This document shows positions 56,632 to 57,588 of a stretch of DNA of 64,000 nucleotides, one piece after another (the first letter of the stretch is position 1; each line of letters starts with the position of its first letter). The notes under the pieces were generated by a model. The model had not been told where the DNA came from, made no database searches, and was given only the letters and a program-made list of their open reading frames with translations. Made by a program: the position numbers and the translations under genes. The DNA comes from Pseudomonadota bacterium (GTDB lineage Bacteria; Pseudomonadota; Gammaproteobacteria; Competibacterales; Competibacteraceae): the NCBI GenBank assembly GCA_022709365.1, contig JAKLIY010000018.1:1-64000 (forward strand). The letters run 5' to 3'.

Positions 56632-57210
56632 ATGAGAAAGCTCCATACCCGGAAATATCGGAGTTTAACGGCGATAACGCTAGCCTGGGCGCTGACAACG
56701 CCGGTCTGGGCCACCCAACCGGCGGATGCCCCTAAAGCCAGCGAAGAACTCCGGGCGACGCTGCGCCAGCACCATGAAGCCCTGAATAAACATGACCTCA
56801 AGGCGCTGCTGGCCCTCTATGCCGACACCCCCAACGTGGCGCTGATGGGCACCGGCCCCGGTGAATTCTGGAAGGGCAAGGCGGCGGTGGAAGACACCTA
56901 TAAGCACTATTTCGAAACGTTCAAGACCGGCTCGTTGAGCCATGAATGTCCCGAAGTGACTGGATTTGAAGAAGGCAACGACGCCTGGCTGATGGCTTCC
57001 TGCATCATGAAGGATACTGACCCGGAAGGACAACCACGCGAGTTCGGACTCAATATTTCGGCGGTGCTGAAGAAAGAAAAGGCTGGTTGGCGGCTCCAGG
57101 CGATGCACTTCTCCAATCTGGCCGGAGACGAAGCACCGCCTGAAGAAGACGCAGCCCCGGAAGCTACTCCTGCACCAGGGGCGGAAGCCGCGCCAAAGAA
57201 GGCTCAGTAG
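56632..57210 (+). CDS. SnoaL/NTF2-like exported protein (DUF4440 type)
   Basis: A 192-residue protein with a signal peptide (LAWALTTPVWA), a cone-shaped NTF2-like domain (LRQHHEALNKHDLKALLALYADTPNVALMGTGPGEFWKGKAAVED, in pieces), and an acidic Ala/Pro/Glu tail (after residue 160). The start lies within a copy of the dispersed CCCGGAAATATCGGAG motif. It may bind a small molecule or be enzymatic; neither is visible. The next gene starts 24 bases after its stop. Confidence 0.8.
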   Translation: MRKLHTRKYRSLTAITLAWALTTPVWATQPADAPKASEELRATLRQHHEALNKHDLKALLALYADTPNVALMGTGPGEFWKGKAAVEDTYKHYFETFKTGSLSHECPEVTGFEEGNDAWLMASCIMKDTDPEGQPREFGLNISAVLKKEKAGWRLQAMHFSNLAGDEAPPEEDAAPEATPAPGAEAAPKKAQ

Positions 57211-57234
57211 AGGAAGAGGAAGAGGAGAATAATC

Positions 57235-57588
57235 ATGATCGACCAACAGGAGAAGGGGCTTTCGGAATCCTCCGATGCGCCGGTTGCTCAGGAGCGGCGG
57301 CGGTTTTTGCGCGGACTCGGTAAATGGTCACAGGCGGTGATCGGCGGCGCGCTGCTGGGTGGCGCGCTGATTGAATCCAAACCGGCCCAGGCTTGGGTTG
57401 CCGCCCGTGGCTATGGCGGCTCCGCTGCCGCTGGCGGGGGGGGTAGCTGGGTTAACCGCTACGGCGGTGGCGGCGGCTGGATCAACGGCGGTGGTGGCGG
57501 TGGTGGCTGGATCAATGGCGGCGGCGGCGGCGGCGGCTGGGTCAATCGCTATGGCGGTGGCGGCGGAGCCTGGGTCAACCGCCGTTAA
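57235..57588 (+). CDS. Gly-rich protein with a twin-arginine-like leader and five W-[IV]-N motifs
   Basis: A 117-residue protein. Residues 21-50 resemble a twin-arginine (Tat) signal (RRRFLRGLGKWSQAVIGGALLGG) ending SKPAQA. The mature part is mostly glycine with five WVN or WIN units: SWVNRYGG, GWINGG twice, GWVNRYGG and AWVNRR. W-x-N is the target motif of radical-SAM cyclophane-forming enzymes in Xye, Grr and Fxs peptide systems, as I recall it. No radical-SAM gene is in this window. It may be an orphan RiPP-like precursor, or simply a structural Gly-rich protein. Confidence 0.65.
   Translation: MIDQQEKGLSESSDAPVAQERRRFLRGLGKWSQAVIGGALLGGALIESKPAQAWVAARGYGGSAAAGGGGSWVNRYGGGGGWINGGGGGGGWINGGGGGGGWVNRYGGGGGAWVNRR

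Follow-up and report, generated by a model that had tools for sequence, protein, structure and literature searches.

The locus studied here raises the question whether a small glycine-rich peptide with an export-type leader is the substrate of a radical SAM enzyme when the window, i.e. the whole stretch of 64,000 nucleotides of a Competibacteraceae MAG that was analysed, holds no gene for such an enzyme. The initial annotation had described an orphan Gly-rich peptide with five W-[IV]-N motifs and a Tat-like leader, and had read it as a candidate triceptide substrate. Based on the results presented below, the peptide is very probably the substrate of a radical SAM enzyme encoded elsewhere in the genome, and a probability of about 80% is assigned to the reading that it represents a triceptide-like RiPP precursor, which is modified in trans and exported via the Tat pathway.

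The gene and its repeat were confirmed as described (Table 1), and shuffling of the core, repeated 200,000 times, did not produce five W-x-N units in any case. The units are located at residues 72, 82, 92, 102 and 113 with glycine runs between them, and represent the predicted crosslink sites. The N-terminal leader reads RRRFLRGLGKWSQAVIGG (also given as RRRFLRGLGKWSQAVIGGALLGG). A scan for promoters and terminators around the gene yielded nothing exceeding chance. Homologs of the peptide were found in 29 of 59 related genomes.

Table 1. Positions of the features discussed in the text; coordinates refer to the window unless a locus label (L) is given.
Feature	Position	Strand	Remarks
SnoaL-like protein gene	56632..57210	+	signal-like N-terminus; 24 bases separate it from the downstream peptide gene
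Likely ribosome binding site	57211..57228	+	purine-rich stretch directly 5' of the peptide ATG, read from the sequence
Precursor peptide gene, 117 aa	57235..57588	+	ATG start; Tat-type leader, Gly-rich core, five W-[VI]-N
Conserved leader motif RRRFLRGLGKWS	57295..57330	+	W-S invariant and R-R nearly so in 120 relatives
AQA, likely signal-peptidase site	57385..57393	+	just before the core; inferred
Five W-x-N units	57448..57579	+	W codons start at 57448, 57478, 57508, 57538, 57571
Examples of peptide repeat/gene variation	L138:3815-4366, L089:4884-6345
SnoaL-linked peptide of G027	L105:4929-5258		intact leader, frame-shifted core
Divergent peptide group	L121:4147-4539, L126:2299-2688, L120:102-494, L136:2619-2996, L141:1290-1670		same kind of leader

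Across 120 peptides of the family, an asparagine followed at position +2 in 853 of 1010 tryptophans (84.5%), compared to at most 10% for the other offsets tested, and 853 of the 991 asparagines were located at this distance from a tryptophan. The middle residue can be any of 16 kinds. Thus, the repeated aromatic-x-Asn spacing (i, i+2) that characterizes triceptide substrates was found for the majority of tryptophans and for all five units of the window copy. The Competibacteraceae peptides differ widely in the middle residue and in the number of repeats, which reaches 17 W-x-N within the set. At the locus L089, three tandem peptide genes adjoin the enzyme. This variation, for which L138 serves as a further example, suggests a fast expansion of repeats and genes.

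Concerning the surroundings of the window copy, the earlier calls hold for DUF2092 (229 bits) and SnoaL_3 (54 bits), while the DUF6515-like protein lies with 24.1 bits marginally below the cut-off of 24.9 bits. The DUF2092 and DUF6515-like genes are located farther upstream of the peptide than the SnoaL-like gene. As stated before, no radical SAM gene is present in the window; PF04055 had no match on the whole contig and 22 matches on other contigs of the genome. The description as an orphan is therefore appropriate for the window but not for the genome, in which two paralogs share the leader of the window peptide. One of these, on contig C54, comprises nine W-x-N units. A SnoaL paralog and a gene for a 399-aa SPASM radical SAM enzyme are located immediately upstream of it in the same orientation. 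The other, on contig C53, precedes the gene of a 267-aa protein. Within the 3.4-kb loci around the radical SAM genes of this genome no W-x-N peptides were detected, the C54 peptide lying just outside its locus. The distant maturase considered in the initial annotation thus has a candidate. Modification of the window copy by this remote enzyme would follow from the shared leader and not from adjacency.

Since neither an enzyme nor a pseudo-enzyme gene adjoins the window copy, and its C-terminal repeats also fit a structural Gly-rich protein, it could be a relic that has become detached, or a secreted protein that is left unmodified, with modification being limited to the enzyme-adjacent copies. 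This explanation is distinctly unlikely in view of four observations. Compared to orthologs from other genera, the core of the window peptide showed a dN of 0.07-0.24 and a dS of 0.67-1.18, which indicates purifying selection on the protein sequence, and its leader agrees with the one of the paralog beside the enzyme. Moreover, scattered SnoaL-peptide pairs without an adjacent enzyme are kept in several places and in many genera of the family; in the SnoaL tree, the window pair falls into a clade of 15 members from many genera, and 14 of these 15 members have no adjacent enzyme. Finally, in a genome in which no matching enzyme was found (G027), the core of the SnoaL-linked peptide is frame-shifted behind an intact leader. 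A recent duplication of the C54 pair was also considered as the origin of the window copy; this is ruled out, since the SnoaL proteins of the window and of the C54 locus belong to different Competibacteraceae subclades.

Modification in trans, as assumed for the window peptide, is consistent with the arrangement of the genes among the relatives. Three layouts were observed, namely enzyme and peptide (with or without SnoaL), SnoaL and peptide, and peptide and 267-aa protein, and the genes for peptide, 267-aa protein and enzyme are all kept together in a single Competibacteraceae relative only (G011). Where genomes comprise the enzyme it is a single one, compared to as many as five peptide matches per genome. 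In Competibacteraceae, a motif search revealed no second radical SAM gene behind that of the 267-aa protein. Peptide and enzyme were both found in 24 genomes of the family, the peptide only in 5, the enzyme only in 2 and neither in 6, and peptide and 267-aa protein occurred together in 26 and were both missing in 7, with 3 + 1 discordant cases. Accordingly, the 267-aa protein tracks the peptide better than the enzyme does (Fisher P of 9e-5 compared to 0.004, both values ignoring shared ancestry). The drafts G006 and G016 (93% and 99% complete) comprise the peptide and the 267-aa protein, and no enzyme was found in them. The link between peptide and enzyme is hence not absolute, given these two genomes, in which the enzyme is possibly missing as a result of drafts broken at repeats.

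The enzyme itself is intact. The CX3CX2C motif was present in all 42 diverse members, and nine further cysteines, typical of SPASM proteins, are invariant in the C-terminal half. As expected for triceptides, the precursor family is therefore genetically linked to a SPASM radical SAM enzyme of its own, for the window copy in trans. The search of the genome for a SPASM radical SAM enzyme, as suggested in the initial annotation, was thus successful, but an assignment to the Grr/Xye/Fxs type could not be upheld. The scores were 85-92 bits for GrrM/OscB (TIGR04261, cut-off 310 bits) and, for the first member, approximately 35 of 450 bits for XyeB (TIGR04496) and 35 of 370 bits for FxsB (TIGR04269). 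The best NCBIfam profile was that of the anaerobic sulfatase maturase (TIGR03942) with 137-143 bits, compared to a cut-off of 349 bits. The profiles of DynA (130 of 450 bits for the first member) and DarW scored somewhat above GrrM/OscB, all below their cut-offs, and the C54 enzyme of the own genome behaved like the first member. The predicted model (pLDDT 90.6) matched anSME and ChlB with a TM of 0.74-0.78 at about 16-22% identity.

Outside the Competibacteraceae the components form a complete operon. Scanning named genomes with the enzyme alignment resulted in 79 loci. Outside the family, 46 loci had enough upstream sequence to be testable; 44 of these, counted by eye, showed the order (SnoaL)-peptide-267-aa protein-radical SAM enzyme, 37 of them (likewise counted by eye) with SnoaL in front. 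The hosts include Chromatiaceae, a Methylococcaceae bin, Accumulibacter, Acidobacteriota, Desulfobacterota, Verrucomicrobiota, Eremiobacterota and others. Orthologs of the C54 enzyme adjoin such peptides in at least five phyla, which, together with the maturase in the genome and the agreement of the motif with OscB chemistry, supports the reading as a triceptide substrate. A leader HMM built from the Competibacteraceae also detected the peptides outside the family, and by eye these combine an RRxFL...WS leader with a W-x-N core. Clustering of the neighbours for further conserved operon genes yielded only general signalling proteins, one shared housekeeping set and sulfatases in four loci (L177, L185, L201, L228). 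The latter possibly reflect chance or hint at a kinship to sulfatase maturases. It could be argued from these sulfatase genes, and from anSME being the best match in both profile and structure, that an anaerobic sulfatase maturase is encoded on C54, which lies near the peptide by chance. With adjacency to the peptide kept across phyla in nearly all testable loci and a best score of 143 bits far below the cut-off, this is highly improbable.

Besides this operon, a divergent group of peptides was observed (Table 1), in which the same kind of leader is combined with a Cys pair and W-x-N in a core like VNWNDC...WLNSSGSGGHWINS...GGTWVNY. Neither the enzyme nor the 267-aa protein is encoded next to these peptides. 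Upstream of them lies a gene for a small membrane protein, which in L120 and L126 is preceded at some distance by an asparagine-synthetase-like gene.

Not only the enzyme, but also two partners belong to the conserved arrangement. The 267-aa protein was not visible to the initial annotation, and the adjacent SnoaL-like protein had been reported but not linked to the system. The 267-aa protein from C53 exceeded the cut-off of no Pfam or NCBIfam family, but it models as a radical-SAM/SPASM fold. The model of the ortholog in L175 (pLDDT 94) showed ChlB and anSME as the best solved matches, with VIA-align Z values of 14.7 and 14.3 over 251 residues at an rmsd of 3.3-3.5, while Foldseek resulted in an E of only about 0.001. 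None of 28 members comprises the CX3CX2C cluster site, whereas all 28 retain a C-terminal CxxCx5C that aligns with the SPASM cysteines of the enzyme. Based on this combination of modelled fold and cysteine pattern, the protein is probably a radical SAM homolog without catalytic activity. The fixed place of its gene between those for peptide and enzyme points to a role as partner. The SnoaL-peptide pair likewise recurs in related genomes, and export together with a secreted SnoaL partner suggests a function of the product in the envelope rather than in the cytoplasm.

The leader may serve more than one purpose. In 120 aligned leaders, R-R was retained in 99-100% and F and L in 98-99%, while the W and S were invariant, which is partly caused by anchoring the rows on the W-S motif and by excluding two further members with small changes at this motif. 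The Tat-like character assumed before is real, with RR-x-F-L kept in at least 98% of the relatives and TatC encoded in the genome, but the match to the Tat signal profile (TIGR01409) is weak, with 13.7 bits for the window peptide compared to a cut-off of 16.7 bits. A Tat signal requires RR-x-FL, but is not known to require a W-S at a fixed distance. The W-S is therefore a candidate recognition element for the radical SAM enzyme, as far as can be read from the sequences. An A-x-A in the region of the putative cleavage site was found in 106 of the 120 relatives. In one peptide (L197, residues 9-66) the leader weakly matched TIGR04117, a radical SAM target with Cys-Xaa-Xaa-Xaa repeats (E 0.069), which may indicate that two different cores are combined with one type of leader.

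Among the known systems, GrrA/GrrM (OscA/OscB; TIGR04260, TIGR04261) is similar in the Gly-rich precursor, the repeated aromatic-x-Asn and the SPASM radical SAM enzyme. In contrast to it, the present peptide and enzyme both lie below the family cut-offs, an invariant WS marks the Tat-like leader, and SnoaL and pseudo-radical-SAM partners are present. For TIGR04260 (cut-off 31 bits) the window peptide gave no match, and the best relative scanned singly reached 26.1 bits. AmcA/AmcB (NF041721, NF041718) also places several cyclophane motifs on one precursor, but leader and operon differ; the enzyme scored only 63 of 425 bits with AmcB, and for AmcA (cut-off 40 bits) one Contendobacter peptide reached 36.8 bits and the window peptide gave no match. 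With anSME and ChlB, both known from solved structures, the enzyme shares the overall radical SAM and SPASM fold; unlike anSME, its substrate would be the adjacent Gly-rich peptide and not a sulfatase. The 267-aa protein resembles, by NCBIfam name only, the pseudo-SAM/SPASM family TIGR04347, which we take to group radical-SAM relatives from RiPP loci that lack catalytic activity, in having the fold without the catalytic cluster site; its lack of a family match distinguishes it. Since the enzyme scores far below every NCBIfam family cut-off, the family is a new variant of the cyclophane RiPPs, without a name in the databases searched. No paper on Competibacteraceae RiPPs or on pseudo-radical-SAM partners was found among the open-access literature. 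Unannotated clusters with Aro-Xaa-Asn motifs are mentioned in PMC9062424, which may or may not include the present family, and it may already appear as an unnamed cluster in triceptide sequence networks.

With regard to the product, a Trp-Asn three-residue cyclophane is most likely by analogy, because in motifs of this type OscB forms a bond between Trp C7 and Asn C-beta (PMC11002830). Another bond, for example an ether, a C-N link, an epimerisation or a hydroxylation, would be compatible with an enzyme family distinct from GrrM/OscB and with the somewhat higher scores of DynA and DarW, dynobactin-type enzymes making C-C and C-N crosslinks (PMC11002830), but the strict i to i+2 spacing fits the substrates of OscB, and such a bond is rather unlikely. 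For the cyclophane, the following course is proposed. In the cytoplasm, the C54 enzyme would recognise the shared leader RRxFLxGLGKWS, probably working together with the dead homolog from C53, and would connect the ring of every Trp with the C-beta of the Asn at position +2, with a loss of two hydrogens per unit. The modified, stiffened peptide would then be exported via Tat, with the same leader acting as the signal, and cleavage after the A-x-A would release a product of about 64 residues bearing at most five rings. The secreted SnoaL-like protein encoded next to the peptide would belong to the system as well, probably encountering this product in the envelope.

Altogether, these features may, as a tentative picture held at somewhat less than even odds, describe a cross-phylum RiPP system with a pair of an active and a dead radical SAM protein, one enzyme serving several unlinked precursors in trans, a Tat signal doubling as recognition leader, and export of pre-stiffened cyclophane peptides, along with a SnoaL partner, to the envelope. 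The radical-SAM pseudo-enzyme partner and the Tat signal as RiPP leader are testable cases, and named strains with the full operon, including Chthoniobacter flavus Ellin428, Thiorhodococcus minor DSM 11518 and Lamprocystis purpurea DSM 4197, make the chemistry checkable. A precursor without a local enzyme can be assigned one via its leader. The family adds an unnamed, widespread branch to the cyclophane RiPPs, carried by glycogen-accumulating sludge bacteria, purple sulfur bacteria, Accumulibacter, sulfate reducers, Acidobacteriota and Verrucomicrobiota.
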